Part shown: positions 306 through 15,295 of the stretch, one piece after another
Layout: each line of letters starts with the position of its first letter
How positions within the stretch are numbered: the stretch's first letter is position 1
Source: a virus
Length of the DNA: 51,477 nucleotides
IMG/VR virus record: IMGVR_UViG_3300023192_005275
Coordinates: 1-51,477 of that record
Direction: 5' to 3' (one strand)
The notes under the pieces: generated by a model
The model's database searches: none
Told to the model about the DNA's origin: nothing
Seen by the model: the letters and a program-made list of their open reading frames with translations, nothing else
Translations under genes and position numbers: made by a program

Positions 306-482
306 ATGAAAATAACTAAATGCCAACTTAAGAAGTTGATTAAAGAAGAAATTAATGAAATTTCATTAAAATCGCTTGGCGCGGGTGCTAATCCTTTAGA
401 ACCCATATATGCTGCCTTAAGGGCTTTAGGCAACGGCTTAGATGATCTAGGTGATAGGGTGAGCAGGTTAGAGGACAAATAA
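306..482 (+). CDS. Tag A small protein (58 aa)
   Basis: A 58-residue protein beginning M-K-I-T-K-C-Q-L-K-K-L-I-K-E-E, a member of the recurrent tag A family found on the next genes. The tag is an amphipathic basic helix ending in I-K-E-E, similar in layout to T4 capsid-targeting propeptides that gp21 cleaves after [I/L]-x-E. The remainder is Ala/Leu-rich and ends in a short heptad-like helix (L-D-D-L-G-D-R-V-S-R-L-E). No function is recognised for the body. It ends 3 bases before the next tagged start, as in a translationally linked cassette array. Confidence 0.7.
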   Translation: MKITKCQLKKLIKEEINEISLKSLGAGANPLEPIYAALRALGNGLDDLGDRVSRLEDK

Positions 483-485
483 ATA

Positions 486-734
486 ATGAAACTCACCAAA
501 TCAAGACTTAAGGAAATTATTTACGAGGAATTGGAAGCGGTTTTAAATGAAAAAATTTTTGAAGAAAAAAAAGATGACCTATGGATTCAAAGCGCCGAAG
601 AAGATATCGAAAAACGCGGAACTGAAGGGGTTTGCACTGGGGATAAGTTTGGTGGACCAACTTGCCCCCCTGGTACCAAACGATATAATTTAGCAAAAAC
701 GTTTCGTAAAATGGCAAAGAAACGAAAAAAATGA
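486..734 (+). CDS. Tag A protein with Cys/Lys-rich body (82 aa)
   Basis: The N-terminus M-K-L-T-K-S-R-L-K-E-I-I-Y-E-E is tag A. A second candidate cleavage site, V-L-N-E, follows near residue 22. The body is charged, has two cysteines in a C-T-G-D-x-F-G-G-P-T-C context, and ends in a strongly basic K-K-R-K-K tail that could bind DNA. The TGA stop overlaps the next ATG (ATGA at 731-734), implying coupled translation. A basic, short, tagged protein fits a packaged internal head protein; this is inference. No family was recognised. Confidence 0.7.
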   Translation: MKLTKSRLKEIIYEELEAVLNEKIFEEKKDDLWIQSAEEDIEKRGTEGVCTGDKFGGPTCPPGTKRYNLAKTFRKMAKKRKK

Positions 735-1105
735 AACTAACCAAAGGGCAACTTAAAGAAATTATTAAAGAGGAGCTGTTTGTGTTTATGAACGAGGGAA
801 ACAAAGCTTCTAAAACGGTGGGCGATCCTCCTTATCGAGAAAGAGGCGCAACAGAATCTCAAGCTCAACAAAAAGCTGCTGGAATGGCATATTCATGTCG
901 CGAAAAGCGCGGGGATGAGCGTACTAAATGTGCTGCCAAATTAAAGGATTATGGCGGCGCTGCGTGGGATTTATATAATGGCGAAATTACCTTTAAAGAA
1001 TTAAGAAATTTGGCGAAATTAGGACAGAAAGTTAAACAACACAAATCTAAAGAGCCTAAACATCTTAAAAGCCTTCCGGGGCACGCTACACAAGCAAAGG
1101 ATTAA
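731..1105 (+). CDS. Tag A protein, basic body (124 aa)
   Basis: It starts M-K-L-T-K-G-Q-L-K-E-I-I-K-E-E, and the tag is followed by F-V-F-M-N-E, a second possible [I/L]-x-E-type end. The body has two cysteines (near residues 56 and 67), a helical Lys/Leu-rich stretch (F-K-E-L-R-N-L-A-K-L-G-Q-K-V-K) and a basic C-terminus rich in Lys and His. It is coupled to its upstream neighbour by a 4-base overlap and lies 3 bases before the next tagged gene. No catalytic motif is visible. Internal head protein is the most economical guess. Confidence 0.7.
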   Translation: MKLTKGQLKEIIKEELFVFMNEGNKASKTVGDPPYRERGATESQAQQKAAGMAYSCREKRGDERTKCAAKLKDYGGAAWDLYNGEITFKELRNLAKLGQKVKQHKSKEPKHLKSLPGHATQAKD

Positions 1106-1108
1106 ATT

Positions 1109-1498
1109 ATGAAACTAACTAAATCAAAACTCAAACAGATTATCAAAGAAGAGCTTGCTCAAGCAATAAAAGAAGGCGATGTTGTTCCTGGTCCATGGGA
1201 AAAAACCAAAGAAGACCCTGGTCCTGTTGGGGGAGAAGAACTTCCGGCAGAATATCAATATGAATATGTTTTAGATGAATTAGTTAATGCCGCTAGAGAT
1301 GCTATAATGCCTTTAGCCGTTAAAAAACTAAAAGATGCAGGGGCTTTTAGTGAAGAAACGGGAATAGCTTTAACTTATAATGATATTGAATTAGAAATTG
1401 AAGAGCCCTTGTTAGATGCGCTTAAACCACTAGCTAAATTAATTCAAGCTAAATCAGATCACGCCCCCCAGCGAGAAACTGAAGAAGGCGAGTGGTAA
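1109..1498 (+). CDS. Tag A protein, acidic helical body (129 aa)
   Basis: The N-terminus M-K-L-T-K-S-K-L-K-Q-I-I-K-E-E-L is the canonical tag A. A Pro/Gly/Glu-rich linker (about residues 25-45) follows, then an acidic helical domain around L-D-E-L-V-N-A-A-R-D-A-I-M-P-L. The coding bases for the tag are identical over about 32 nucleotides to those of the gene at 1509, far closer than the bodies, which are unrelated. That suggests recent copying or recombination of the tag. Function of the body is unknown. Confidence 0.7.
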   Translation: MKLTKSKLKQIIKEELAQAIKEGDVVPGPWEKTKEDPGPVGGEELPAEYQYEYVLDELVNAARDAIMPLAVKKLKDAGAFSEETGIALTYNDIELEIEEPLLDALKPLAKLIQAKSDHAPQRETEEGEW

Positions 1499-1508
1499 GG
1501 TAATAAAA

Positions 1509-1622
1509 ATGAAACTTACAAAATCAAAACTCAAACAGATTATCAAAGAAGAACTCACTAAAACAGAAAAAAAACGTAAGAAAGAACTTGAAGGTGAGCT
1601 TGAAACTTTGGAGCACCAATGA
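1509..1622 (+). CDS. Tag A mini-protein, probably the 5' part of a split gene (37 aa)
   Basis: Thirty-seven residues: tag A (M-K-L-T-K-S-K-L-K-Q-I-I-K-E-E-L) followed by a very charged helix (T-E-K-K-R-K-K-E-L-E-G-E-L-E) and an in-frame TGA at 1620-1622. Sense codons continue in the same frame straight into the ORF called at 1653, with no new ribosome binding site between them. The two pieces are therefore probably one original gene (1509-1877) interrupted by a nonsense codon, or one read through at low level. TGA is used as an ordinary stop elsewhere in the window, so a reassigned code is unlikely. Confidence 0.55.
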   Translation: MKLTKSKLKQIIKEELTKTEKKRKKELEGELETLEHQ

Positions 1623-1652
1623 ATAAAAGAGGCAACGCTGAGTTCAGCGCTG

Positions 1653-1877
1653 ATGGTACGTTATGGAATTAACGAAGAAGACACTACAGGTATTGTGCTT
1701 TGGCATTCTTTAAGCGAAAATGGCAAAGTTGGTATATATGATATGAAATTTGGCAATACCATTATTCGTAATCTAACTGAGGGAGATCTCACGGAGTCCG
1801 TGCCAAAAACTCACAAGCGTGATGATAATCATGGTGCGCAAAGCGAAGAAGATCCAGTTAGAGGAACAAAAAAATGA
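1653..1877 (+). CDS. Probable 3' part of the split tag A gene (74 aa)
   Basis: The ORF opens at an ATG with no Shine-Dalgarno sequence and lies in the same frame as the tagged fragment that ends at 1622; the codons from 1623 to 1652 are all sense. The product contains a compact hydrophobic segment (T-G-I-V-L-W-H-S-L and V-G-I-Y-D-M-K-F-G-N-T-I-I) and a polar, charged tail. It ends in a 4-base ATGA overlap with the next tagged gene, so the cassette spacing is preserved as expected for the 3' end of a tagged gene. Independent expression is doubtful. No family was recognised. Confidence 0.5.
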   Translation: MVRYGINEEDTTGIVLWHSLSENGKVGIYDMKFGNTIIRNLTEGDLTESVPKTHKRDDNHGAQSEEDPVRGTKK

Positions 1878-2125
1878 AACTAACCAAATTAAAACTTAAA
1901 CAGATTATTGCTGAAGAGCTTAATGGCATTCTTCTTGAAGATTATGATTATGAAGATGAATGGGCAAACCAGCTTGAAGAAACAATAGATTCTATACAAA
2001 AATTAGCAAAAACATTAGAAAACGAAAAATCTAATTCCATTGAGTATGTTCGTAAAATACTGCATGGTCGTTTAGATGAATATATTAATGAAGACTATAT
2101 TAAAAGAAGTTTAACAGAGCAGTGA
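1874..2125 (+). CDS. Tag A protein, acidic helical (83 aa)
   Basis: It starts M-K-L-T-K-L-K-L-K-Q-I-I-A-E-E-L, the last clear tag A in the array. A second possible cleavage site (I-L-L-E) follows at about residue 22. The body is an acidic helix with heptad character (W-A-N-Q-L-E-E-T-I-D-S-I-Q-K-L-A) and a C-terminal helix. It overlaps the preceding frame by 4 bases and is followed by a 68-base gap, which marks the end of the tag A group. Function is unknown beyond the inferred head localisation. Confidence 0.7.
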   Translation: MKLTKLKLKQIIAEELNGILLEDYDYEDEWANQLEETIDSIQKLAKTLENEKSNSIEYVRKILHGRLDEYINEDYIKRSLTEQ

Positions 2126-2193
2126 CCTGAGCAGAAAAAGCTTCGTGTAAGCTTAAAATAGATTGAATAAATATTTGAAAATAGAACAGTCTC

Positions 2194-2418
2194 ATGCTTA
2201 ATTGGAATCGGCAAATTGAATTTAAATTAGATATCGTCACCATTGTTGTCATCAGCTTATTTACAGTAATTTTGGGAATATATTATTTTTCTATAGAAAG
2301 AAGACTGGATTCTATTCATGAGAAAGTAGAATTTATGCATCACCGCTATGGGGATTATGCACATTTAGAAAATCGTCTAATATTACTTGAAGAAAAATTA
2401 AACCAGCAAAATAAATAA
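2194..2418 (+). CDS. Small membrane protein with coiled coil (74 aa)
   Basis: Residues about 13-30 (I-V-T-I-V-V-I-S-L-F-T-V-I-L-G-I-Y-Y-F) form one membrane segment. A heptad-patterned helix follows (S-I-E-R-R-L-D-S-I-H-E-K-V-E-F and L-E-N-R-L-I-L-L-E-E-K-L). A single N-terminal anchor with a cytoplasmic or periplasmic coiled coil is seen in many phage small proteins. It does not resemble a holin closely, since it has only one segment and no dual start. It carries no tag. Function is unknown. Confidence 0.6.
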   Translation: MLNWNRQIEFKLDIVTIVVISLFTVILGIYYFSIERRLDSIHEKVEFMHHRYGDYAHLENRLILLEEKLNQQNK

Positions 2419-2498
2419 CTTAAAATACATTGCATTATAAATTAAAATATATAAAAATGAGGTAATTATAAATGCAGAATCACGAAAGGGAGCATGTC

Positions 2499-2687
2499 AT
2501 GGCTACGAATAAAGAACTAGAACAACAAGTAAAGGTGTTAAGCGAGAGAGTCGCGAGAGTACAAGCCTCTAACTCCGAAATGCGAGATGAAGTTGTGTAT
2601 TTAAAAAGAAATTATGCAAACCTAGTTGACGATATGAATGCGAGGTTGGAAGCAATTCACACTACATTTCGAAATAAAACCAAATAA
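2499..2687 (+). CDS. Coiled-coil protein (62 aa)
   Basis: The start chosen is the ATG at 2499, which has a strong AAGGGAG six bases upstream. An in-frame ATG at 2472 with a weaker GAGG would add nine residues. The protein is almost wholly a coiled coil: L-E-Q-Q-V-K-V-L-S-E-R-V-A-R-V-Q followed by M-R-D-E-V-V-Y-L-K-R-N-Y. It probably forms a homo-oligomeric helical bundle. No family or function was recognised. Confidence 0.6.
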   Translation: MATNKELEQQVKVLSERVARVQASNSEMRDEVVYLKRNYANLVDDMNARLEAIHTTFRNKTK

Positions 2688-2729
2688 AATCAAAATGCTT
2701 ATTAAAAAAATAAAAAAATTTTTACTATT

Positions 2730-2954
2730 ATGAATGTTAACCCACAAGATCAAATAAAAATAGATTTATCGGACGTAGAAACTGTTTCCTGTGACAATTG
2801 TCAAAATGAAACTTTTGTAACGGCTTTCATTATTAAAAAAGTTTCTGCTTTGATATCTCCCACTGGGCAAAATACGCTGGTACCTTTACAAGTTTTTAAA
2901 TGTGATGAGTGTGATCACATTAACGAGTTATTCCTTGAGGGTATGACTAATTAA
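2730..2954 (+). CDS. Small zinc-ribbon protein (74 aa)
   Basis: Two Cys pairs are visible: C-D-N-C at residues 21-24 and C-D-E-C near residues 60-63, separated by a beta-rich segment, which is the layout of a zinc ribbon. Similar short proteins occur in many marine T4-like phages without assigned function. It lies 3 bases before the tagged nucleotidyltransferase gene, so the two may be co-translated. It could bind nucleic acid or a partner protein through the zinc fold. Confidence 0.6.
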   Translation: MNVNPQDQIKIDLSDVETVSCDNCQNETFVTAFIIKKVSALISPTGQNTLVPLQVFKCDECDHINELFLEGMTN

Positions 2955-2957
2955 TGT

Positions 2958-3740
2958 ATGGATTTCATAAAATCTTGGAAAAGTTTTCTTGAGGAATTAG
3001 CAGATCCTCAGTTTGTTGATGTTTCCTCCTTAAAATTGAAAGACCAGCTGCCTCCTGGTTTGTGGCATGGGAATCAACTCCAACCAGAGGTGCGCGAGGC
3101 GGCAATTAAGATCGCTAATGAATTTTTTGAATCTTTAGAATTGGATCCTTCCATATCACTAAAAGATATTATTTTAACAGGCTCTACAGCGACCTATAAT
3201 TGGTCTGATATGTCGGATTTTGATTTACATATTCTTATAGACTTTGATCAGCTAGCTAATCTTCCGCTTCTAGAAGATTATTTTAAACAAAAAACTAGAA
3301 ACTGGAATAATACCCATATGATTCTCATGAAAGGATTTGAAGTTGAGGTATATGTTCAAGATAGCAACGAGCCGCACTATGCTAGTGGCATATACTCCGT
3401 GGTGGAAAATCGTTGGCTGAAACAGCCATCTAAATTTCGCGGGGAAATCGACTATGAAAGTATTAAGAGGAAATCAGCTCACTTGATGGAAGAAATAGAT
3501 GAAGTATATGAATATTACGCCGAAAAAGATTATAAAACAGCTCATAAAATGGCTGAAAATCTAATGGATCGAATTAGAAAGTATAGAAAAGTTGGATTAG
3601 AAACTGGTGGTATAAATTCTATTGAAAATCTTACATTTAAAGTTTTAAGACGAAACGAATATATAAAAAAGTTAAGTAGTTTGAGAATTCTTTCGTACGA
3701 TGCAATGATGTCCGTCAATGGCTTGAGTGAAGTAATTTAA
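2958..3740 (+). CDS. Nucleotidyltransferase-fold protein with tag B-like N-terminus
   Basis: A 260-residue protein. Around residues 75-96, I-L-T-G-S-T-A-T-Y-N-W-S-D-M-S-D-F-D-L-H matches the polymerase-beta type nucleotidyltransferase signature G-S-x(8-10)-D-[FL]-D; the third carboxylate may be the E in F-E-V-E-V-Y. The family moves a nucleotide onto protein, RNA or small-molecule targets. The N-terminus M-D-F-I-K-S-W-K-S-F-L-E-E-L is a looser form of tag B (W-x-x-[YF]-L-x-E). The C-terminal 100 residues are helical. If the tag is a head-targeting signal, this would be a packaged enzyme; the substrate is unknown. Confidence 0.7.
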   Translation: MDFIKSWKSFLEELADPQFVDVSSLKLKDQLPPGLWHGNQLQPEVREAAIKIANEFFESLELDPSISLKDIILTGSTATYNWSDMSDFDLHILIDFDQLANLPLLEDYFKQKTRNWNNTHMILMKGFEVEVYVQDSNEPHYASGIYSVVENRWLKQPSKFRGEIDYESIKRKSAHLMEEIDEVYEYYAEKDYKTAHKMAENLMDRIRKYRKVGLETGGINSIENLTFKVLRRNEYIKKLSSLRILSYDAMMSVNGLSEVI

Positions 3741-3825
3741 AAAAAGAAAGTCATATAGAAATAAAATACTTAGCGAGTTAAAAGAAAATAAAATAACTAA
3801 TTAATGTAAAAGGAGTTACACAACT

Positions 3826-4248
3826 ATGAGTCATGATAATTTGTCCTTTACCAAATATACATATGGTACAGGTCTAAGTAACGTTGGTTCTTACCAAGTT
3901 AGTGGCAAGCCATTTTTATCTGGGAATATCAATACCCAAGTTACTAGCAAAATAGTGTTTCCCGCCGTAACACAATGGATTCATGTTTCATCGAGTGCAG
4001 CTATTGATATAGGGATGTCTGCTTTTGGCGTAGAGGGGGACAGTTCTATCGGCGGTCAACAATCTTTTAGAGTCAACACTGCGGGCGGGCAAAATCTCCC
4101 TGTATTACAAATTAAATGTACGGAACTATATTTAGAGGGATCAGCTATAGTAGATGTTATAGCCGGACTTACCGGCATTGACATTGCACGCATTCAGGCA
4201 ATTTCTCCATCTGGGTCAAATTGGTCAGGATCAGCTGGCATTGGGTAA
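3826..4248 (+). CDS. Probable virion structural protein (140 aa)
   Basis: An Ala/Gly/Ser-rich, beta-type protein with few charges, beginning after an excellent ribosome binding site (AAAAGGAG about nine bases before ATG) that suggests high expression. The motif Y-G-T-G-L-S-N-V-G-S-Y-Q-V-S-G-K-P-F is the type of conserved N-terminal strand seen in small phage structural proteins. No catalytic residues are apparent. It is best viewed as a decoration, tail or fibre-related protein, but the exact role is not established. Its TAA overlaps the next ATG by one base. Confidence 0.55.
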   Translation: MSHDNLSFTKYTYGTGLSNVGSYQVSGKPFLSGNINTQVTSKIVFPAVTQWIHVSSSAAIDIGMSAFGVEGDSSIGGQQSFRVNTAGGQNLPVLQIKCTELYLEGSAIVDVIAGLTGIDIARIQAISPSGSNWSGSAGIG

Positions 4249-4451
4249 TGAAAATTAATATTCTAGAGGTTGGGAGCCATAACAATTTCACCCCAGCGGG
4301 ATATGTAGAAGATGAAGAAGATGAAGATATTGAGAAGCGCGCTATTATAGACCAACCGGTCATTTATACTGAAAAAAAAAATAAAAATGTATCATTGGTT
4401 ATCCGCATTAAAAAATGCGGACACAAAGATGAAAGTGCGCGCACCATGTAA
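4248..4451 (+). CDS. Small acidic protein (67 aa)
   Basis: The start is placed at the ATG overlapping the preceding stop (TAATG); the longer frame from 4221 would begin inside the structural gene. The product has an acidic run (V-E-D-E-E-D-E-D-I-E) followed by a beta-like segment and a basic Cys-containing end. An 8-bp perfect hairpin (4402-4409 with 4414-4421) lies inside its 3' coding part but lacks a T-tract. Function is unknown. Confidence 0.5.
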   Translation: MKINILEVGSHNNFTPAGYVEDEEDEDIEKRAIIDQPVIYTEKKNKNVSLVIRIKKCGHKDESARTM

Positions 4452-4478
4452 TATATATTTTTTGTGGAGCGTCAAATA

Positions 4479-4661
4479 ATGGAATATGAGGATTTTATTT
4501 TTAATAATCAAATGATAGCGGAAAGCGAAGCGCAATCATATATAATTGATATAAATAACTTGCAAGCTAAAATAAATATTTTAGAAAAAAAGCTTTCTCA
4601 ATTTAAAGAGTGCCAATTAAAATTTCTTCCAGAATGCGCGCAACAGCGCCGAAAGAGCTAA
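4479..4661 (+). CDS. Small coiled-coil protein (60 aa)
   Basis: The ATG at 4479 is preferred over an in-frame GTG at 4464 because GGAG at 4467-4470 sits at the right distance from the ATG. The central part is a heptad helix (I-N-N-L-Q-A-K-I-N-I-L-E-K-K-L-S-Q-F). Two cysteines follow near the end (E-C-Q and P-E-C-A). No function was recognised. It lies between a structural gene and a lipoprotein gene. Confidence 0.5.
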   Translation: MEYEDFIFNNQMIAESEAQSYIIDINNLQAKINILEKKLSQFKECQLKFLPECAQQRRKS

Positions 4662-4706
4662 CAATTATTAAAATATCTTCTATTAGCCATTAAAAAGGAA
4701 AACAAA

Positions 4707-5171
4707 ATGAATATTACTTTCAAAAAAACAATTTTATTAGCCCTGGTTTGGCTAGGATTTATAGTTTCTAATGTGAGTTGCGTTTCTTCAGCTCATTTAT
4801 CCGCTAAAACTTTAAATAAATTAATCTTTAAAAATATTCAACAATGTCAGATTGCAGGCTTGTGGAACGTTCCCGTTATGGGGCTTTCTGTTACTCTAGC
4901 AATCTATGAACGGTGTATGGGTGTTAAAGATTTGGTTTTATTATCGATTAATACGCAAAACAATGTGGAGCTTGAAAATGCCACCATTGCTGTGGTTATG
5001 CTGCGTTATGTACATTATCTTAATACTACTGATGCGGGGAACAAACTACAGTGGGCAGCCCAATTAGTTAAAAAAACGCAGCTGCCAGCACTGGAAAGTC
5101 CATCGAGGCAAAAAAACCGTATTTATTATTATGTGTTAAAGGGTGAATCTAAGAAAAGTGTTAAGGACTAG
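4707..5171 (+). CDS. Probable lipoprotein or exported small protein (154 aa)
   Basis: The N-terminus has a Lys-rich start and a hydrophobic core (I-L-L-A-L-V-W-L-G-F-I-V-S) leading to V-S-C, a possible lipobox with the lipidated Cys near residue 25. The rest looks like a globular, mixed alpha/beta domain with two further cysteines that could pair in the periplasm. It starts a group of three membrane-associated genes (4707-5829). In phages, small lipoproteins often act in superinfection exclusion or as Rz1-type spanins, but the size and lack of a proline-rich tail argue against Rz1. Function is unknown. Confidence 0.5.
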   Translation: MNITFKKTILLALVWLGFIVSNVSCVSSAHLSAKTLNKLIFKNIQQCQIAGLWNVPVMGLSVTLAIYERCMGVKDLVLLSINTQNNVELENATIAVVMLRYVHYLNTTDAGNKLQWAAQLVKKTQLPALESPSRQKNRIYYYVLKGESKKSVKD

Positions 5172-5175
5172 TAAA

Positions 5176-5367
5176 ATGTTAAGGGCTAGTGTAGTCATAT
5201 TTTTATCTATATTGGCATTGGTTTGTCTCTGCCTTGGGGTTTTAGGGTTATCAAGGGAGATTACCTCCATTAAGAACGAAATAGAAATACAAAAAGTAAT
5301 ATTGTATAATTTAGAGATTCAAACAACTGAAATAAAAAAAATAATAAAAGAAGACTGTTATTTATAA
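5176..5367 (+). CDS. Small membrane protein with coiled coil (63 aa)
   Basis: The ATG at 5176 follows AAGGA with good spacing; a GTG at 5143 would overlap the preceding gene by 29 bases. One hydrophobic segment (V-V-I-F-L-S-I-L-A-L-V-C-L-C-L-G-V-L-G-L) is followed by a short coiled coil (I-K-N-E-I-E-I-Q-K-V-I-L-Y-N-L). A membrane protein followed by a lipoprotein resembles an i-spanin/o-spanin pair in layout, but no endolysin is adjacent, so this remains a guess. Confidence 0.5.
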   Translation: MLRASVVIFLSILALVCLCLGVLGLSREITSIKNEIEIQKVILYNLEIQTTEIKKIIKEDCYL

Positions 5368-5379
5368 CTATTTAATAAT

Positions 5380-5829
5380 GTGAAAACTATTATTTTATTT
5401 TGCCTTGCATTATTTTTTGTAAGTGCATGCGGTTCGCGATTTGCTCAAAATCCCAATGCAAATGTGATAGTGGTCTCTCAATATGAAGATGAATCCCCTA
5501 AAATAGTTTTATCACCAAATTCTGATTGTAACCGCAAAACTATATGTGACACCAAAAAAGGCGCTAACTGCGCTGCCTTTCTTTATCTCCAATCCGAATC
5601 TTTTATCCAAGAAGGAAAAAAACTAATAACTAAAAAGCTTTATCTTTCAGCGCAGCTTGAATATATGCAAGCATTGTGTTATCTTTTTATAGGAGAGATT
5701 GTTTTAAAAAAATCAAAAACTGAAAGTTATGAAGATTGGGAAATTGCTGTGACCCTGGGATTAGAAAAAAAAATAAAAGAAAGAATTGAACTTTGCGAAA
5801 AACAAATCAGACTTTTAAGGTGGAAATAA
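5380..5829 (+). CDS. Lipoprotein with helical body (149 aa)
   Basis: It starts at GTG. The signal peptide is textbook: M-K-T-I-I-L-F-C-L-A-L-F-F-V-S-A-C-G-S, with lipobox V-S-A-C and lipidated Cys17. The mature part has a cluster of cysteines (C-N-R-K-T-I-C-D and A-N-C-A-A) and then two or three long helices of TPR-like appearance (L-Y-L-S-A-Q-L-E-Y-M-Q-A-L-C-Y-L). It would sit in the inner or outer membrane facing the periplasm. TAA is followed immediately by the ATG of the next, tag B, gene. Confidence 0.6.
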   Translation: MKTIILFCLALFFVSACGSRFAQNPNANVIVVSQYEDESPKIVLSPNSDCNRKTICDTKKGANCAAFLYLQSESFIQEGKKLITKKLYLSAQLEYMQALCYLFIGEIVLKKSKTESYEDWEIAVTLGLEKKIKERIELCEKQIRLLRWK

Positions 5830-7077
5830 ATGAAACTCCTACTTGAAAGCTGGCGACAGTATCTAAATGAAGTTTCTTTTTCAGATGCAAAAGAAATCCT
5901 TGATTCTAAACGCACTTTAAAGATTATTAAAGCATATCGCTATGATAACGATCAGGATGATACAATTAAAAGCTGGGACGCTCCATTGATAGGCACTCAA
6001 CACCGTAATTTTAGAAACTATCTTCTCGATCATATCCCCGATGATTTAACTGATAACCAAAAGGGCACTTCTGTTCTCTGGTTGCTAAAACTATCAAGAG
6101 AAGACCCAAAAGTTGCTGCTGAATTTATTAATGGTCGTATTACGATTGGTCCTCGACGCAGCCTTGAAACATTTTTTCATCATCAGCGATTTATGCCTAG
6201 ACAAGATCTAATGCAAATCAAGACCATGGAAGATCTTGTTGCTATGACTTATGCAGCAAAAGAGGAAATTCAAAAAGCACAAGATAAAAAGAACTATCTT
6301 GATGCAGAACAAGGTACAGAAATTTTTAGAAATGATGATAAGTGGACTATCGCGGCACTTCACAATAAAGGTGCTGCATGCGAACTCGGCAAAAACACCG
6401 ATTGGTGTACTGCTGCTCCCGGTTTAGATTATTTTGAAGATTATTATAAAGAAGATGATCCTTTGTTTTATTTCCAAAATAAAAGCAATTTAAATAAATT
6501 TCAGTTCCACTATGGTTCATCTCAATTTATGAATTCGAAGGATGAGCGGGTTGATAAAGAATCTTTTGAAGTATTACACGATATGCTTACTCAAACAGAG
6601 GCATACAACAAATATGAGAAGCTTCGGAGATTTGATTTAGAGAGGTTGGTGAAAATACGCCTAGTTGATGGACCGCATGCGCAGGCGCAGATAGATGAGA
6701 TGAGGGAAATTCTGAATTCTTTAGAAGATCCTTATGCTATGGCGAACACGCTAGCAGAAATGGCAACTCTAGATCATTTTAATATTCCAACATATGTTTT
6801 AAGGTGGTTAGCTAGCGAAGAGTTTTATGAATATACTGGAGTTGCTAGAAGAATTGTTAAATATTATGATATTGTTCCTTCGGATATCTTGGAGGATATA
6901 GCAGAAAATAATCCACAAGAGAGAACAAGAGAGATGGCTAAAAATGTTTTAGAAAAGAGAAGTGCCTCAACTCCTGCTGCAGCAAGCTTGCGTGGTTCAC
7001 AATCAACATCAGCTGCGGATCCGTATGCAGCGCTCCAAGAACGCTTCAAAAAGTTCAGAATAGGGATAATTAAATGA
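5830..7077 (+). CDS. Tag B protein with W-C-T-A domain (415 aa), paralogue 1
   Basis: It starts M-K-L-L-L-E-S-W-R-Q-Y-L-N-E, the tag B peptide, followed by V-S-F-S-D-A-K-E-I-L. Residues about 180-235 hold the hallmark N-K-G-A-A-C-E-L-G-K-x-T-D-W-C-T-A-A-P-G, then F-E-D-Y-Y, P-L-F-Y-F and F-H-Y-G-S-x-Q-F-M. This W-C-T-A/Y-Y/L-F-Y pattern recurs in phage proteins of unknown activity. A C-terminal extension of about 130 helical residues, ending in an Ala/Ser-rich stretch, is absent from the paralogue at 7325. The gene ends in an ATGA overlap with the next tag B gene. Probable internal head protein; biochemical role unknown. Confidence 0.7.
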   Translation: MKLLLESWRQYLNEVSFSDAKEILDSKRTLKIIKAYRYDNDQDDTIKSWDAPLIGTQHRNFRNYLLDHIPDDLTDNQKGTSVLWLLKLSREDPKVAAEFINGRITIGPRRSLETFFHHQRFMPRQDLMQIKTMEDLVAMTYAAKEEIQKAQDKKNYLDAEQGTEIFRNDDKWTIAALHNKGAACELGKNTDWCTAAPGLDYFEDYYKEDDPLFYFQNKSNLNKFQFHYGSSQFMNSKDERVDKESFEVLHDMLTQTEAYNKYEKLRRFDLERLVKIRLVDGPHAQAQIDEMREILNSLEDPYAMANTLAEMATLDHFNIPTYVLRWLASEEFYEYTGVARRIVKYYDIVPSDILEDIAENNPQERTREMAKNVLEKRSASTPAAASLRGSQSTSAADPYAALQERFKKFRIGIIK

Positions 7078-7328
7078 AACTCCTACTTGAAAATTGGCGG
7101 AAGTATATGAAAGAAAATATTGATCTTGATATTAAGGTTGGTGATGTTCTATTGGGCGGCAGATACAAAAATAAAAGAATTGTAGTTAAAGAAATAGGAA
7201 TCGATGAATTAGGTCAGCCAACTATTAATGGTAAACCTATTTTAAAATTTAGAATTGAAAAAAACCTACCAGATGAAAAAAAAAGCAAGAAGACTTTAGA
7301 AACAGAAAAAAAGGATTCTAAAGAATGA
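7074..7328 (+). CDS. Tag B protein, small beta domain (84 aa)
   Basis: The tag M-K-L-L-L-E-N-W-R-K-Y-M-K-E is joined to a short beta-barrel-like segment (I-K-V-G-D-V-L-L-G-G-R-Y-K-N-K-R-I-V-V-K-E-I) reminiscent of small SH3-like or KOW-like folds. The tail is highly charged and Lys-rich. It overlaps both neighbours by ATGA, so three tagged genes are translated in series. No enzyme motif is visible. Confidence 0.65.
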   Translation: MKLLLENWRKYMKENIDLDIKVGDVLLGGRYKNKRIVVKEIGIDELGQPTINGKPILKFRIEKNLPDEKKSKKTLETEKKDSKE

Positions 7329-8164
7329 AACTCCTATTTGAAAATTGGCGTCAGTATTTAAATGAAGTTTCCTTTGCAGACGCCAAAGAAATTCTTAATT
7401 CTAAAAGAACAGTAAAAATTATTAAAGCGTATCGTTACGACAAAGAGCAGGGTGATGCAGTTGATAGTTGGGACATGTCATTGCCACGCACTCAACATCG
7501 CAACTTTATAAACTACCTCCTCGATCAAATCCCAGACGATTTAACAGACAATCAAAAAGGTTCTTCTGTATTGTGGCTGTTAAAATTGTCACGAGAAAAT
7601 CCAAGTTATGCAGCTTCTTTTATTGAGGGGAGCACAAACCGGTTCCGCAATGTCTGGGATCATCTCGAAACCTTTTTCCATCACCAACGCTTTATGCCTC
7701 AACAGGATTTGATGCAAGTTAAATCAATCGAAGATCTTGAAAAAATGGCAGAAGATGCAAAAGAGGAAATTCACGCAGCACAAGAGAAAAAGCAATATCT
7801 AGATGCAGAAGTTGGCACGGAAGTTTTAAGAGATGATGATGAATGGTTTATCGCCGCTATTCATAATAAAGGTGCTGCTTGCGAACTGGGCAAACAGACC
7901 GATTGGTGTACTGCTGCTCCTGGTTTGAATTATTTTGAGGATTATTATGAACCAGATGATCCGCTGTTTTATTTTGAACAGCGAGAATCCAATTTAGAGG
8001 GAATGGTTGTTGGCAAGTGGCAGTTTCATTATGGATCTGAACAATTTATGGATCGTAATGATCGCGAGGTTCCAGAGAAGCAATTTAAATTTCTTACCCG
8101 TCTCCTCAGACAAACAGAAGCATATAAGAAATATCCAATCATAACAGCCCGGTCTGGCTTGTGA
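7325..8164 (+). CDS. Tag B protein with W-C-T-A domain (279 aa), paralogue 2
   Basis: It starts M-K-L-L-F-E-N-W-R-Q-Y-L-N-E and is clearly homologous along its length to the protein at 5830, keeping N-K-G-A-A-C-E-L-G-K-Q-T-D-W-C-T-A-A-P-G and the downstream F-E-D-Y-Y and F-H-Y-G-S. It is shorter: after Q-T-E-A-Y-K-K-Y it leaves the paralogue's sequence and stops. The +1 frame from about 8145 continues as plausible coding sequence, so this copy may be truncated by a frameshift. Tandem duplication with a small tagged gene in between indicates local expansion of the family. Confidence 0.7.
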   Translation: MKLLFENWRQYLNEVSFADAKEILNSKRTVKIIKAYRYDKEQGDAVDSWDMSLPRTQHRNFINYLLDQIPDDLTDNQKGSSVLWLLKLSRENPSYAASFIEGSTNRFRNVWDHLETFFHHQRFMPQQDLMQVKSIEDLEKMAEDAKEEIHAAQEKKQYLDAEVGTEVLRDDDEWFIAAIHNKGAACELGKQTDWCTAAPGLNYFEDYYEPDDPLFYFEQRESNLEGMVVGKWQFHYGSEQFMDRNDREVPEKQFKFLTRLLRQTEAYKKYPIITARSGL

Positions 8165-8267
8165 GAGGGGTGTGGATGAAGACGAGCCCATTGTTGAAGA
8201 TATTGCGCGCCTATTTGAAAATTGGCAAGAGTGCTTAAATAAAAATGAAACATCTTATAGACCATAA
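8145..8267 (+). pseudogene. Frameshifted relic containing a tag B-like peptide
   Basis: The frame here is open from just after a TAA at 8142-8144 to TAA at 8265-8267. It includes E-D-I-A-R-L-F-E-N-W-Q-E-C-L-N-K-N-E-T, whose middle matches tag B (L-F-E-N-W-R-x-Y-L-N-E). No properly spaced start codon precedes the motif; a GTG at 8172 is too close to a GAGAGGGG. It is either the frameshifted end of the 7325 gene or the decayed 5' end of another tagged gene. I see no evidence that it is translated. Confidence 0.45.
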
Positions 8268-8454
8268 TGAAACATATTTAAATCATATGCTGTTTGCCGG
8301 TAAAATTGGTTTAACCTTGATGCTTAGAGGTCTTGTTTTTTTATTACATGCTGTTTTTCCACTTTGCAAAATTCCGAGAAGGTGGAATCTTTCTAATACG
8401 TCTACGAAAATAGCAGAATGGAACTCATATACCATTAGGAGATTGAAAGAGTGA
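8245..8454 (+). CDS. Small possible membrane protein (69 aa)
   Basis: This ORF starts at an ATG inside the relic region and has one hydrophobic stretch (I-G-L-T-L-M-L-R-G-L-V-F-L-L-H-A-V-F) followed by a basic tail. Its TGA overlaps the next GTG start (GTGA), the linkage typical of the real genes here, which supports translation. It has no tag and no recognised family. It might be a remnant created when a tagged gene decayed. Confidence 0.4.
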   Translation: MKHLIDHNETYLNHMLFAGKIGLTLMLRGLVFLLHAVFPLCKIPRRWNLSNTSTKIAEWNSYTIRRLKE

Positions 8455-8822
8455 AAGTACTATTTGAAAATTGGCGAGTATATTTAAAAAACATTGGAAA
8501 GACTTTTCCTACAATTACAAAGTTAGATATTATAGAAAACCCTGCTCAAAATGTTCATCAAAAAAATGCATTATTAAATATGTTTGGAACATTGCAGCGC
8601 ACCACCAACACAAACCCAGAAGATGGGGTTACAATACAAAATATTTTAACTTCCATTTATAATTATAGTGGCAATTCTGAGGAATTCAAATATAAGTCTA
8701 AAGAAGATGCGTTGCGTGATTATGTGGAACCATATAAATATGGAGACAAAAGCTTAAAAGATCACCATAAGCGGATTCAAAATATCATTTATGACTTGAC
8801 ACGGCATAAATTACGGATATAA
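8451..8822 (+). CDS. Tag B protein of unknown function (123 aa)
   Basis: It starts at GTG with M-K-V-L-F-E-N-W-R-V-Y-L-K-N, a tag B in which the usual final Glu is Asn, so the presumed protease site may be weakened or lost. The body is mixed helical, with Q-N-I-L-T-S-I-Y-N-Y and a basic C-terminal helix (H-K-R-I-Q-N-I-I-Y-D-L-T-R-H-K-L). No motif was recognised. Overlap with the preceding frame and a short gap to the next tagged gene keep it within the cassette array. Confidence 0.65.
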   Translation: MKVLFENWRVYLKNIGKTFPTITKLDIIENPAQNVHQKNALLNMFGTLQRTTNTNPEDGVTIQNILTSIYNYSGNSEEFKYKSKEDALRDYVEPYKYGDKSLKDHHKRIQNIIYDLTRHKLRI

Positions 8823-8829
8823 TAGAAGA

Positions 8830-9813
8830 ATGAAAAATGCGTTTGAAAATTGGCGAGAATATTTGAAAGAAGAAGAAGTTGTTACTTTTGATTTTGATTC
8901 TACGTTGTCTCTTTCTCACTGGGGCAAAGAAGAAGATAATTGGGTTCATGATGGACCTTATCTACCTATGATTAAAATGTTCAAACAATATAAAAATAAG
9001 GGGTATAAGGTTTATATAGTAACTTCTAGATATTCTAAATTTGAAAAAGATGCTGAAATGGTAGAAAACCAACGCTCAGTTAAAGAATTTGTCGAAGAAT
9101 ACCACTTATATCCAGATGGAATTATTTTTACGGATGGAAATTTAAAAGCCGATACATTAAAATCACTTAATTCTTTAATTCATTATGATGATGATCCCGT
9201 GGAAATTCAAGCTGCTGAAGAAATAGGCATAAAGACAGTCCTTGTCGATCCATACAAGGAAAACATGCATCAAGTTGATGAGAATAAAGCTCCAAGAGAT
9301 ATAAATAAGATATCTAAAGTCATCATTTATAATAAAAATGGTCAAATTTTAATATTAAAACGAACAAATGGAGAACAAAATTGGGATTTACCCGGTGGGC
9401 ATCTCCAAAAAGAGGAAGATTTTATTGCGGCAGCCAAGAGAGAAACAAAAGAAGAAACAAATTTAACTATTTCCGACATAAAACCCATGGAAACCTATAG
9501 AAATATAAATATATATAAAACAGCATGCCCCAATGAGGATATACGCCTACAACCCAAAGAACATGTGGACTTTAAATGGGTTAATCCAAAGGATGTTCAC
9601 CAATATAATATGAGAAAATACTTAAAATTGGCAGTTTTAAAAGCCTTCGATGCGATGAAAGAAGATTTTCAACACGATGTCAAAAAGAATTATACAAAAC
9701 TTAAATTTAAGCTGCTGGGTGGAGGAGGAAACAAGTATAATGTGGGTGGAAAGATGAAAAAACCCTCTTATAAACGTTCAAAAAGTGCCCCCACGGGCTT
9801 TGGAGGAAGTTAA
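8830..9813 (+). CDS. Tag B HAD-NUDIX fusion protein (327 aa)
   Basis: Tag B (M-K-N-A-F-E-N-W-R-E-Y-L-K-E) is followed directly by a HAD-like domain: motif I D-F-D-S-T-L at about residues 20-25, S-R near 66, and the acidic motif Y-D-D-D-P near 118. Residues about 155-270 form a NUDIX hydrolase with the box G-G-H-L-Q-K-E-E-D-F-I-A-A-A-K-R-E-T-K-E-E, fitting G-x5-E-x7-R-E-x-x-E-E. HAD enzymes remove phosphates and NUDIX enzymes cut nucleoside diphosphate-linked compounds, so a role in nucleotide or NAD metabolism is likely. The C-terminus is Gly/Lys-rich and possibly disordered. The tag suggests packaging in the head; substrate unknown. Confidence 0.8.
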   Translation: MKNAFENWREYLKEEEVVTFDFDSTLSLSHWGKEEDNWVHDGPYLPMIKMFKQYKNKGYKVYIVTSRYSKFEKDAEMVENQRSVKEFVEEYHLYPDGIIFTDGNLKADTLKSLNSLIHYDDDPVEIQAAEEIGIKTVLVDPYKENMHQVDENKAPRDINKISKVIIYNKNGQILILKRTNGEQNWDLPGGHLQKEEDFIAAAKRETKEETNLTISDIKPMETYRNINIYKTACPNEDIRLQPKEHVDFKWVNPKDVHQYNMRKYLKLAVLKAFDAMKEDFQHDVKKNYTKLKFKLLGGGGNKYNVGGKMKKPSYKRSKSAPTGFGGS

Positions 9814-9820
9814 TAATATA

Positions 9821-10009
9821 ATGATTACCATTTCTCGAATTAATTTTAAAATTATTGATTTTTTAAGTGAAAAAGAAAAAAAAGAGCAAGAAAAGGAACA
9901 AAGCCGTCCTTATGCTCAACTGCCGCTACCAAACAAGCCCCATAAGCCCCCCAAAGATGAAAAAAAAGATAAAAAAGGCGGCGGCGGGGCGATTATAATA
10001 GATATATAA
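9821..10009 (+). CDS. Small Lys/Pro-rich protein with Gly-rich end (62 aa)
   Basis: The ATG at 9821, just after the HAD-NUDIX stop, is preferred to one at 9785 inside that gene; GGAGGAA lies upstream although somewhat far. The product has a hydrophobic N-terminal strand (I-S-R-I-N-F-K-I-I-D-F-L), a charged Glu/Lys run, a Pro-rich linker and the C-terminal G-G-G-G-A-I-I-I-D-I. Low complexity suggests a flexible linker protein. No function was recognised. Confidence 0.45.
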   Translation: MITISRINFKIIDFLSEKEKKEQEKEQSRPYAQLPLPNKPHKPPKDEKKDKKGGGGAIIIDI

Positions 10010-10028
10010 TTATATAAGCGTTTATGTC

Positions 10029-10223
10029 ATGGCTGCATTATTTAAAAAAGGAGATCTTGTTTGTTTTGATTTGACGCATCAATACGGATTAGTTTTAGAA
10101 GCGAAAGCCTTTGATGGGTTTGAAGAATGGAAAGATGAACCTTTTATACAGGATGTATTGGTGCGATGGATCGATGGTAAAGAGTTTTGGTGTTTAAGTT
10201 TTACTTTGAAACCAGTTAACTAA
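10029..10223 (+). CDS. Small SH3-like beta protein (64 aa)
   Basis: A short beta-rich protein: F-K-K-G-D-L-V-C-F-D near the start, G-L-V-L-E-A-K, then D-V-L-V-R-W-I-D-G-K-E-F-W and a final strand. The pattern K-x-G-D-L-V ... V-x-W-x-D-G is common in small phage SH3-like domains. It lies between tagged genes but has no tag. No catalytic residues are visible. Function is unknown. Confidence 0.55.
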   Translation: MAALFKKGDLVCFDLTHQYGLVLEAKAFDGFEEWKDEPFIQDVLVRWIDGKEFWCLSFTLKPVN

Positions 10224-10231
10224 TTAATAAT

Positions 10232-10579
10232 GTGAAACTATTACTTGAAAATTGGAAAACCTACCTCAACGAGCAATTAGTCAAATATCAGATGGAAGTG
10301 CTTTTAAGAGCTGAACCAGATACACAACTCTACGGTACCGTATTTGAAAAAATAAGGGCGATTGAAGGTATAACTGTTATAAAAACTACCGAATCCATGC
10401 ATAAAGATTCTCAAGGAAACAAAAATGTAAAACTTAATATTAGATTTATGGTCAATCCTGCCTTGGGTACCCGGTATTTAGCTTTTCTAAGAAGCAAGCT
10501 CCAAACTATAAAAGATGATGAAGGTGATCGTATCATTTCTGTAAAAATTTTACAATTGCCTAAAAAAATTGATTTTTAA
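10232..10579 (+). CDS. Tag B protein, ferredoxin-like body (115 aa)
   Basis: It starts at GTG with M-K-L-L-L-E-N-W-K-T-Y-L-N-E, the last tag B in the window. The body alternates helices and strands (V-L-L-R-A-E-P-D ... I-T-V-I-K-T-T-E-S ... V-K-L-N-I-R-F-M-V ... I-I-S-V-K-I-L), which resembles a beta-alpha-beta ferredoxin-like domain. No active-site pattern is seen. It is followed by a probable promoter, so it likely ends the tagged-gene unit. Confidence 0.65.
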   Translation: MKLLLENWKTYLNEQLVKYQMEVLLRAEPDTQLYGTVFEKIRAIEGITVIKTTESMHKDSQGNKNVKLNIRFMVNPALGTRYLAFLRSKLQTIKDDEGDRIISVKILQLPKKIDF

Positions 10580-10637: not shown

Positions 10638-12821
10638 TTGCCTACGGTAAAAAAATGTTTTTGGATGTTTGTGATATTTATTTTTTTTCTGCTTGGCGCT
10701 ATATCTTGTACGGAAGAAAAAGAAGGCGCAACTAGCAATTCAACTCCTCATCACTATCCTGATATAACCACGGAAGATGTGACCGAAACAACACCATCTG
10801 CAGATGTAGAAGCACCCGAAGACATTCCCGAAGATACTTACGAAAAAGATTGTTTAAGAGAAATATATTATTATTGTCCCCCATTAGATGAAATGAATCG
10901 CGCCAAAGCTTTAGTAGATATATGTGATGATAATAGGGTTTTATCTATTAGTGACTGTGAAGAAGTGTTGGAATGTATACCAACTCCTGCTGTTGTTGCA
11001 GTTGAGGAATGCGAAAAGGATGGAATGAAGGGGTATCTTAATGTTTATTGTTTTAAAGGATTTTTTGAAAAAGGACCGTGTGATCCCTGCGATCTGGAGA
11101 TCTGTGACGGGATCGACAATGACTGTGATGGATTAACGGATGAAGGAAAATATGATTGTAAATCTGAATGTGGAGCAGGATCAGCAGTGTGTGTAGGGGG
11201 GAAAATTGTTGAGTGCGATGCGCCGAAACCTGAAGTGGAAATTTGTGATTATTTAGATAACGACTGCGATGGGGAAATAGATGAGGGGCTCACAAATAAC
11301 TGCGGCGAGTGTGGCAAAGAACCTGAAGAAATTTGTGACCACTTGGACAACGACTGCGACGGTGAGACAGACGAGGGGCAATTAAATGATTGCGGGGAAT
11401 GTGGACCCGATTTAGATGAAATTTGTGATGGCATTGATAATGACTGCGATGGTTTAATAGATGAGGAATTGGTAAAGGAATGCTTTACTGATTGTGAAAA
11501 GAGTTTAGAATATTGCATAGGGGGGCAATGGGTTTGCACTGCTAAGAAACCATTGCCAGAAATCTGTAATGGATTAGATGATGATTGTGATGGAAAAGTC
11601 GATGAAGGTTTACAATGCTTGTGTACGATGCAAGATCTAGGCGTATTAATGCCCTGTAAAGAATCTCCTCTTATTTGTGGAGAAGGGTATAAAACCTGTG
11701 AATGTATAGATAAAAAATGCTCGAAATTACAACTAACAGAATGTTTTGCTGTATGTCATTGGCTTCCACAGCTTTTGCCTCCAAATGCTATATGTGATAA
11801 GCTTATGGGCATTTCAAAACCCGAAGAATGCAATAACCATGATGATAATTGCAATCAATTGGTAGATGAAAATCTTTTTGGCGTGTGTTATAGTGGACCA
11901 CCAGAAACAATGGGAATTGGCATATGTGAAGCAGGAATGCTACTGTGTTTTGAAGGCAAGTGGGGCAATTATGATGATAATAATGGTTTTATTAAAAAGC
12001 TTTGTTTGGGAGAAATTACCCCTGAACCTGAAGATATTTGTAATGGTACCGATGCCAATTGCGACGGAAAGATAGATGAAGATAAGCAACTAACACCAAC
12101 GGATATTCTTTTTATTGTAGATCTTTCAGGATCCATGTTTGAGGAAATTAATGCAGTTATGACAGCGTTAAATAAATTTGCTACCTATTATAGTGATTCT
12201 GAAGTTGTAAAATGGGGGTTAGTATTCACCGCTTCAACAGGAAATAGTAATTCGTCATGGAAAGAAAGGGTAGTACTACAAACCAATCTTGTTGATTTTA
12301 AAACATTTATTAGTATTTTTCAAAATTCTGGTTATTCTTTAGACGGGGGATATGAACAAAATTATGATGCTATATATTTATCCATACATAATTTGGTAAG
12401 TCAGGCAGCGCTTCCTTATTTGGTGACAGACTTAAAATGGATAGAACTGGGATGGGGAGGCGCAATAGGAGAATCTATACCTCCGAAAGAGCAATGGAAT
12501 ATTAGTTGGAGAAACGATGCAAAGCATGTAATAATATTATTTTCTGATGAAGAAGGGCAATCTTATTTGGTACCAAAGATCACAGAATCGATTTTGGTAC
12601 AAATGATTAGTGTAGCTATTGATTTATCGATTTATGTATTTAGTGAAAAATATATACTGGATGGCATATGGGGGGACAGCTATATACCTTTAATTCAAGC
12701 GGGTGCCGGTGGTAAAGCATATGAACTTAAAACTAAAGCTATAGAAATATATAATAACTTATTGGAAATTTTAGAAGAAACAGCGTGCAGTCAGCAGAAA
12801 ACAAATTCTCCCTCTCCATGA
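10638..12821 (+). CDS. MopE-repeat and vWA-domain lipoprotein (727 aa)
   Basis: It starts at TTG after AGAGGA. A signal peptide with a hydrophobic core (V-I-F-I-F-F-L-L-G-A-I-S-C) suggests lipidation at about Cys25. Residues about 150-485 carry seven Cys/Asp repeats of the MopE metal-binding type (E-I-C-D-G-I-D-N-D-C-D-G-x-x-D-E). A von Willebrand A domain follows, with the MIDAS motif D-L-S-G-S at 495-499 and a later L-F-S-D-E-E. MopE repeats are typical of secreted or surface proteins of Myxococcota and other deltaproteobacteria and bind Ca or Cu. No standard phage role is known; a surface adhesin, a receptor-binding accessory or host-derived cargo are possible. It overlaps the next gene by 4 bases. 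Confidence 0.8.
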   Translation: MPTVKKCFWMFVIFIFFLLGAISCTEEKEGATSNSTPHHYPDITTEDVTETTPSADVEAPEDIPEDTYEKDCLREIYYYCPPLDEMNRAKALVDICDDNRVLSISDCEEVLECIPTPAVVAVEECEKDGMKGYLNVYCFKGFFEKGPCDPCDLEICDGIDNDCDGLTDEGKYDCKSECGAGSAVCVGGKIVECDAPKPEVEICDYLDNDCDGEIDEGLTNNCGECGKEPEEICDHLDNDCDGETDEGQLNDCGECGPDLDEICDGIDNDCDGLIDEELVKECFTDCEKSLEYCIGGQWVCTAKKPLPEICNGLDDDCDGKVDEGLQCLCTMQDLGVLMPCKESPLICGEGYKTCECIDKKCSKLQLTECFAVCHWLPQLLPPNAICDKLMGISKPEECNNHDDNCNQLVDENLFGVCYSGPPETMGIGICEAGMLLCFEGKWGNYDDNNGFIKKLCLGEITPEPEDICNGTDANCDGKIDEDKQLTPTDILFIVDLSGSMFEEINAVMTALNKFATYYSDSEVVKWGLVFTASTGNSNSSWKERVVLQTNLVDFKTFISIFQNSGYSLDGGYEQNYDAIYLSIHNLVSQAALPYLVTDLKWIELGWGGAIGESIPPKEQWNISWRNDAKHVIILFSDEEGQSYLVPKITESILVQMISVAIDLSIYVFSEKYILDGIWGDSYIPLIQAGAGGKAYELKTKAIEIYNNLLEILEETACSQQKTNSPSP

Positions 12822-13235: not shown

Positions 13236-14258
13236 ATGATTGCAGATATTGTTGTCGATCTTCAATACGGAGATTGTGGAAAAGGTAAAGTAACTCATCA
13301 TCTTTGTAAAATAGGAGATTATACGCATGTTATTAGATACAACGGGGGATGCAACGCGGGTCACACCATTTTTCATCAAGGAAAGAAATTTATCACCCAT
13401 CATATTCCTGCCGGGGTCTTTTTCGGCATTAAGTCTATCATTGGTCCTGGGTGTGTTCTTAACATTAATCAATTTTTTAAAGAGATAGGTGAATTGGAAG
13501 ATGGAGGGATTAAAACCAGCGGGCTTATATACATCGCAAAAAACACTCATATTATTACAGAAAAGCATCTCATGGAAGACAGCAAAGATACAACAATAGG
13601 CACTACAAAAAAGGGAAATGGTCCCGCCTATAGAGATAAGTATGACAGAAAAGGGATTAGAGCAGAACAAATACCTGAATTAGAGCCATACCTAGTTGAT
13701 ATTTATGAGGAATTACATATTAATTCAAAAAATCCCATAATATTATTGGAGGGCGCGCAAGGCTTTGGATTAGATATCGATTGGGGTGACTACCCTTATG
13801 TTACTTCTAGTCACTGTACCGCAGCTGCAGCTCTTTTAAATGGCATACCCCCACAAGCCATTAGAGATGTTTGGGGGGTTGCAAAGGCTTATGAGACATA
13901 TGTCGGCGCAAAAAAATTTCATGGAGAAGATCCCATCTTCGATCATATTCAAGAAATTGGTGAAGAGTATGGGGCAACTACAGGAAGAAAACGACAAGTT
14001 AATTGGATGAATATTAGTTTATTACGAAAAGCTGCGCAAATCAATGGAGTAACGCATCTTGTAATCAATAAAATGGACATTTTGAATAAAATAAAAAAAT
14101 GGTCAGTATATAATCCCCAAGCACCCCACACAAAAGGAGAGCGAGAAAATTTAGTTGATTTTTTAGCAGCCAATGGTTTAAGCACATTTATACAAATGGA
14201 ACTTAAAAATACCGCAGTTAACAATTTTTATTTTTCAGAGTCTCCGCACTATATTTAG
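13236..14258 (+). CDS. purA: Adenylosuccinate synthetase, short phage form (340 aa)
   Basis: The enzyme family joins IMP and aspartate with GTP on the route to AMP. Visible signatures: Y-G-D-C-G-K-G-K at 11-18 with catalytic-type Asp13, N-A-G-H-T at 40-44 with the catalytic His43, G-A-T-T-G-R-K-R-Q near 250 for substrate binding, and N-K-M-D at 278-281 for the guanine of GTP. At 340 residues it is much shorter than bacterial PurA (about 430) and close to archaeal and phage PurA/PurZ proteins. The usual G-W-x-D after the Arg motif is N-W-M-N here. Retention of Asp13 argues for PurA or a PurZ0-like intermediate rather than true PurZ, but I cannot settle the substrate. Confidence 0.85.
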   Translation: MIADIVVDLQYGDCGKGKVTHHLCKIGDYTHVIRYNGGCNAGHTIFHQGKKFITHHIPAGVFFGIKSIIGPGCVLNINQFFKEIGELEDGGIKTSGLIYIAKNTHIITEKHLMEDSKDTTIGTTKKGNGPAYRDKYDRKGIRAEQIPELEPYLVDIYEELHINSKNPIILLEGAQGFGLDIDWGDYPYVTSSHCTAAAALLNGIPPQAIRDVWGVAKAYETYVGAKKFHGEDPIFDHIQEIGEEYGATTGRKRQVNWMNISLLRKAAQINGVTHLVINKMDILNKIKKWSVYNPQAPHTKGERENLVDFLAANGLSTFIQMELKNTAVNNFYFSESPHYI

Positions 14259-15043: not shown

Positions 15044-15295
15044 ATGAAATTCAGTTTAGAACGGATGACCAGAAGTTTTCTTTTGGGTGAAACAAAAATA
15101 AGTCCTTCGGCACGTGCATATGCAGAATCAGTTTTGCGTATCTTAGAGGCACTTCGTCCTAAATCACAAAGAGAAAGTCGTCAGATCAGCATAGCAAAAC
15201 AGCATCTCCAAGAAATAAAGAAATTAAATAGAAAACTTGAAGAAAGAATAACACTTTTAGAAGAACAAGTCAAGATTTTAGAAGAAGGGAAATAA
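15044..15295 (+). CDS. Coiled-coil protein with possible cleavable N-terminus (83 aa)
   Basis: It begins M-K-F-S-L-E-R-M-T-R-S-F-L-L-G-E; L-G-E resembles the [I/L]-x-E end of the tag peptides. The C-terminal half is a clear heptad coiled coil (L-Q-E-I-K-K-L-N-R-K-L-E-E-R-I-T-L-L-E-E-Q-V). Its ATG follows the previous TAA without a gap and the next ATG follows after one base. A head-core or scaffold helper is conceivable. No family recognised. Confidence 0.6.
   Translation: MKFSLERMTRSFLLGETKISPSARAYAESVLRILEALRPKSQRESRQISIAKQHLQEIKKLNRKLEERITLLEEQVKILEEGK

Follow-up and report, generated by a model that had tools for sequence, protein, structure and literature searches.

Two families of N-terminal tags on unrelated phage proteins as probable capsid-targeting propeptides in T4-type head maturation

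Here we present two short N-terminal tags, designated A and B, which recur on proteins with otherwise unrelated bodies in a 51,477-nt stretch of viral DNA (the whole of which is called the window below) and in its relatives. The tags probably act as capsid-targeting propeptides in head maturation of the T4 type, from which we infer packaging, cleavage and injection of the proteins that carry them. This interpretation, originally made from the window alone, gained support from the maturation protease encoded by near-complete relatives, from the T4 spacing and cleavage motif of tag B, and from the tags found on head-operon proteins. On sequence grounds, tag B would belong strongly with the T4 capsid-targeting sequences by every testable feature. 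Tag A is moderately supported as working in the same manner and is not counted as a member of that group, since it lacks the aromatic pair at the targeting positions, where its columns show L, I or K instead. It is apparently a second tag class, new to the literature; no published account of the tag strings was found in the literature searched.

Gene starts were called with a simple script, and the ORF lists bore out the predicted inventory of six tag A ORFs within positions 306-2125, six tag B ORFs within 5830-10579 and a looser tag B at 2958. The tag B ORFs at 5830, 7074, 7325 and 8830 begin with ATG, and those at 8451 and 10232 with GTG. The tagged ORFs of the window are as follows:

306..482, plus strand: 58-aa protein with tag A (MKITKCQLKKLIKEE); a tag A homolog in contig G026 has 57% identity.
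486..734, plus strand: 82-aa protein with tag A and a second site, VLNE, at residue 22; a homolog in L006 is 71% identical.
731..1105, plus strand: 124-aa tag A protein with a body resembling DUF3008 (E 5.5e-5, just under the Pfam cut-off); MNEG follows the tag.
1109..1498, plus strand: 129-aa tag A protein with AIKEG at residue 22; the body is kept in relatives at 66-84% identity.
1509..1622, plus strand: 37-aa ORF, barely longer than tag A (ORF list).
1874..2125, plus strand: 83-aa protein with tag A and a second site, ILLE, at residue 22 (ORF list, site count).
2958..3740, plus strand: nucleotidyltransferase-like protein (database match) with the looser tag B (MDFIKSWKSFLEE); its orthologs have variant tags.
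5830..7077, plus strand: 415-aa W-C-T-A (PcfJ-like) protein with tag B (ORF list, homology, structure model).
7074..7328, plus strand: 84-aa protein with tag B (MKLLLENWRKYMKE); a homolog in another phage has tag A.
7325..8164, plus strand: 279-aa W-C-T-A paralog with tag B; the G025 ortholog has YLLTE in place of YLNE.
8451..8822, plus strand: 123-aa protein, GTG start, with tag B minus the final Glu (YLKN); the G001 homolog has YLNE.
8830..9813, plus strand: fusion of HAD-like and NUDIX domains with tag B (ORF list, database match).
10232..10579, plus strand: 115-aa protein, GTG start, with tag B; homologs in several other contigs have tag B variants.

As predicted, the tagged bodies in the window are mutually unrelated, with the exception of the W-C-T-A pair at 5830 and 7325; database matches were nucleotidyltransferase-like (2958), HAD plus NUDIX (8830) and DUF3008-like (731). 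The further proposal that both tags end in [I/L]-x-E held for most copies and failed at 8451, which lacks the final Glu (LKN), and at 7074, which ends M-K-E. The ORF at 15044 begins with MKFSLERMTRSFLLGE, and a relationship of this end to the tags is only suggestive. No enrichment was found in a search for C-terminal tag-A-like motifs prompted by the stretch 14285-15043.

The T4 internal proteins IPI, IPII and IPIII carry a capsid-targeting sequence that is cleaved by gp21 (PMC9026906, PMC3012670), and the sequence records of IPII and IPIII both begin with MKTYQEFIAE, so that the short common targeting peptide invoked by the original prediction is indeed present. According to mutational work, targeting depends on residues 4 and 7 and processing on residues 8 and 10, and the gp21 cleavage site is L/I-x-E (PMC9026906). 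Tag B, likewise a short N-terminal peptide on unrelated proteins, shares with T4 the aromatic pair three apart, the hydrophobic residue and the [L/I]-x-E end: its W8-x-x-Y11-L12-x-E14 has the spacing of Y4-x-x-F7-I8-x-E10 in IPII and IPIII, although its front is four residues longer (MKLLLEN-W). Column frequencies were 1.00 for W8, 0.97 for Y/F11, 0.91 for L/I12 and 0.99 for E14 in a set collected with a pattern that covered these positions. When 229 tag B N-termini were picked only up to W-x-x-aromatic, with the site left out of the selection, [L/I]-x-E was in register in 177 and displaced by exactly one residue in 12, against a background of 1% per position. One such displacement is seen in the G025 ortholog, where YLLTEV stands in place of YLNEV of the window. 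An acceptable site is missing from about a dozen tag B copies, including that at 8451.

No head genes were found in the window, which is a fragment. The gp21-like protease on which the original prediction depended was found in the relatives, with Peptidase_S77 present in all 14 tag-bearing contigs longer than 150 kb. Thirteen of these came from the matches listed in the pattern scans described below, and both Peptidase_S77 and Gp23 scored above cut-off in 13 of the 13. The remaining contig, G025, was reached through its W-C-T-A cargo and encodes both the protease and a gp23-like gene; it is the nearest relative found, with homologs of 39 window proteins, largely in the same order across 14-50 kb of the window. 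T4 gp21 residues H85 and S140, which we take to be catalytic, are invariant in the Peptidase_S77 of the relatives. Nine gp23 homologs have L-[RK]-E before A/S at 59-60, near the end of the T4 gp23 propeptide at residue 65. In 13 of 19 shorter tag-bearing contigs, the gp55-like late sigma factor of the lineage was identified. Since gp21-type protease matches were also obtained in six of six named control phages that carry nucleotidyltransferase or W-C-T-A homologs, some of them with a homolog that has no clear tag, co-occurrence with the protease is necessary and not discriminating. S77-type proteases are common in large phages.

Tagged genes are found next to the protease gene, with tag A in G001 and G005 and tag B in G012, G007 and G003. 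Also adjacent to the protease, the head operon encodes a conserved protein of about 140 aa, assigned as a core protein by its position, which has a tag-A-like N-terminus and an invariant L22-x-E24-x-G26; the G004 copy reads MKLKRSVLKQLIKECLVEILIEG and aligns with tag A without gaps. A gp22-like gene was placed by position alone, upstream of gp23.

The tags can be exchanged on a single cargo. The 7074 protein consists of MKLLLENWRKYMKEN followed by its body, and its L029 homolog of the tag A sequence MKITRRQLRKIISEA followed by its body; over 59 residues the bodies alone share 64% identity (E 2e-19), and in both proteins tag and body join at residue 15, directly after residue 14. Two more body clusters mix tags A and B. 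Furthermore, the nucleotidyltransferase orthologs start with MDFIKSWKSFLEE in the window, MRKLFENWEIYLEE in G001, MSFERKWKNFQRLTE in G005, MEDWNDFKRMIRE in G008, MKAFKEYLEE, of T4 length, in G006 and MNKWKKFLDE in G025. Across these six the N-terminus varies, aromatic-x-x-aromatic followed by Glu is kept, and all six end in [L/I]-x-E.

In tag A, [L/I]-x-E occurs at residue 14 in 96% of cases, a value that derives partly from the pattern used to collect the set. A second [L/I]-x-E was found at residues 19-26 in 47%, compared with 4-10% in control windows, and this count is unaffected by the selection. Since about half of the tag A proteins have a second site near residue 22, tag A may be processed at a point other than residue 14. 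The presence of more than one [LI]xE in several tag A N-termini, together with short tag A bodies (median 91 aa) of which only 2 of 70 representatives match Pfam, would suit a reading in which tag B alone is a capsid-targeting propeptide and tag A marks components of the prohead core, small proteins that help to assemble or fill it and, in the manner of T4 gp67 and gp68, are digested afterwards and not delivered. We consider this unlikely, because the same cargo can bear A or B, other clusters are mixed, and conserved domain-like proteins occur among the tag A bodies.

Less probable still is that the tags are docking peptides for some other phage or host structure, such as the tail, the replication complex or the membrane, with [L/I]-x-E incidental to an amphipathic helix. 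Both tags can be read as amphipathic helices from their sequence, and many tagged genes are distant from the head operon. However, the site is retained when the tail of the tag shifts, and the ordered body starts after it: in an AlphaFold model of the W-C-T-A protein, pLDDT is below 50 at tag residues 1-12 and the body is ordered from about residue 17. The head-operon placement of tagged genes and the likeness to the T4 sequence also argue against this explanation and for capsid targeting.

Degenerate DNA patterns run on IMG/VR matched tag B in 61 stretches and tag A in at least 119, with several contigs containing both. From the matches listed and eight whole contigs, 485 distinct tagged proteins were collected (281 A and 204 B), which form 331 body clusters, with 265 singletons among them; alignment of cluster representatives limited conservation to residues 1-14/15. 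In a set of 1764 proteins from eight related genomes and the window, a generic tag B core occurred 2.72 times per 1000 positions at residues 1-10 versus 0.165 after residue 50 (16-fold), and a generic tag A core 3.18 versus 0.05 times (about 60-fold). A motif-free search for N-termini common to unrelated bodies returned tags A and B as the main groups in nearly every genome, with a maximum of 13 (A) and 15 (B) genes in G001. Other recurrent groups from the search were rejected as further tags, being the starts of domains (MKVGDLV-type, Rossmann), as was the SGSPF...LRFE motif of some nucleotidyltransferases, a candidate third tag that sits at about residue 50. A tblastn search with the short tags gave no convincing isolate with exact tags among named phages, and regex searches covering most of the genome of Flavobacterium phage immuto, the closest cultured relative by protease, gave no convincing tag A or B. 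The N-termini of the immuto head operon are loosely similar to the tags only.

Tagged genes are clustered and tightly packed, with intergenic gaps of less than 40 bp for 121 of 139. A T4-type late promoter, TATAAATA, was not enriched upstream of tagged genes, nor clearly upstream of head genes, which makes the result uninformative. Between tag copies within one genome, 47-85% of synonymous sites differ versus 3-34% of nonsynonymous sites, and dN/dS was 0.03-0.28 where computable. Despite the dense packing, it is thus very improbable that the common 5' ends are kept at the DNA level to serve as a recombination or translation device through which genes are shuffled into expressed position, since synonymous sites have strongly diverged with the amino acids held, and the motif outlasts insertions.

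Each Pfam family detected among 76 tag B representatives was found on one representative: NUDIX, guanylate kinase, AAA_33, protein kinase, HNH, GNAT, ParB, nucleotidyltransferase, ART-PolyVal and 5'-nucleotidase. With a median of about -4 per 100 aa, the tagged bodies are acidic, unlike the T4 internal proteins, which have been described as basic (PMC9026906). Their wealth of enzyme-like domains and the use of tag A as a second class are other differences from T4. The W-C-T-A model gave no match in a PDB fold search (best E 0.33). Its weak viral matches included PcfJ-like proteins and a PA5oct 'structural protein' (E 5.5e-6, low TM-score). A sequence homolog, MIJ3_00046 (E 2e-12), starts with MKLFEVFTLYE, which like the T4 sequence has aromatics at positions 4 and 7, and adjoins the terminase gene in a phage that also encodes the protease; these observations are no more than suggestive.

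Other systems share parts of this arrangement with the window's relatives, which have in common with T4 a gp21-family protease and a gp23 capsid. The capsid-targeting signal of P1 DarB is also N-terminal and suffices to package a reporter into the phage head; however, a consensus was not found for the Dar proteins, the cargo is one very large protein, and a separate scaffold appears absent in P1 (PMC9024508). In the giant phage SPN3US, diverged head ejection proteins such as gp53 and gp54 have common N-terminal propeptides, which a related protease cleaves behind a motif ending in Glu (PMC5694885, PMC10052503), but most of these exceed 100 residues and occur on few proteins, whereas the tags have 14-22 residues and occur on many. 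Polyvalent proteins and packaged effectors, which are predicted to be packaged and injected, have cargo-type domains of the same kind (ADP-ribosyltransferase, ParB, GNAT and others), and are large, multidomain and recognized by domain architecture and context (PMC5512222); the tagged proteins are instead mostly short and united by a removable-looking tag.

In the mechanism we propose, the short amphipathic N-terminus would dock cargo on the scaffold core, made of the gp22-like protein and associated core proteins, during prohead assembly. Cleavage by the gp21-type protease would then follow the Glu of the [L/I]-x-E motif, which is residue 14 in tag B and would be residue 14, about residue 22, or both in tag A. 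The tag would thereupon depart and the folded cargo would remain in the head, to be ejected with the DNA into the next host. Tag B would be the form taken in this lineage by the IPII/IPIII sequence, and tag A a second class, like the N-terminus of the conserved head-operon core protein. The cargo may be an exchangeable accessory set, in which tag A would mostly accompany small unknown proteins and tag B those that are nucleotide-, kinase-, nuclease- and transferase-like.

A capsid-targeting sequence that lets related phages package diverse proteins has already been proposed for T4 (PMC9026906, PMC3012670), so the tag system would be a much enlarged version and not a new kind. The evidence tips slightly towards a widespread marine T4-like lineage in which the head acts as a general vehicle for delivering proteins, with a payload that is quickly exchanged. 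Two interchangeable packaging codes, an aromatic tag of T4 type and an apparently undescribed helix tag that a core protein also bears, would operate in parallel, and each virion would be loaded with roughly ten to thirty different proteins for injection. If this is true, a 14-residue motif would pick out injected proteins from sequence alone, and hundreds of unannotated marine phage proteins would become candidate early-infection effectors and counter-defence proteins. Two modular signals would also become available by which proteins can be loaded into phage heads, and the internal-protein strategy of T4 would prove able to far exceed its size in T4.

Tagged or possibly tag-like cargo is also found outside the window, where a tag B protein at locus L045:1037-2020 carries a protein-kinase-like domain (Pfam, E 1.5e-6), and where the distant jumbo phage MIJ3 of Pseudomonas encodes a homolog of the PcfJ-like W-C-T-A cargo (L345:37684-39174). 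The N-terminus of the latter, MKLFEVFTLYED, is T4-like in having aromatic residues at positions 4 and 7. Within the window, an ORF of 37 aa at 1509-1622 consists essentially of tag A alone and can be read either as a free tag peptide or as a truncated gene.

Two further kinds of small protein were noted in the relatives. The first, a small basic protein resembling ribosomal protein S21, is encoded in the head operon at L224:16236-16469 and by the equivalent gene of other genomes, adjoining the gene of the tag-A-like core protein; the copy in the related contig G001 matches phrog_21469 (E 1.8e-10). The second is defined by the start M[KQ][VI]GDLV, common to up to nine small genes per genome with diverged bodies (relatives G001, G006, G007 and G025, among others). 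This start reads as the beginning of a small beta-domain rather than as a removable tag. A possible further gene of this type lies at window 10029-10223.

The large protein at window 10638-12821 reads as secreted and lipoprotein-like, with repeated C-D-G-x-D-N-D-C-D-G motifs, a vWFA-like segment (DILFIVDLSGSM) and a homolog at 55% identity in G025, the nearest relative found. By reading of its sequence, the phage gene at 13236-14258 resembles adenylosuccinate synthetase; it may be of the PurZ type and so serve to make modified DNA. Finally, the ~20 kb at 25378-45443 contain genes reading as radical-SAM, glycosyltransferase and sugar-nucleotide functions, as if the phage altered a surface glycan.
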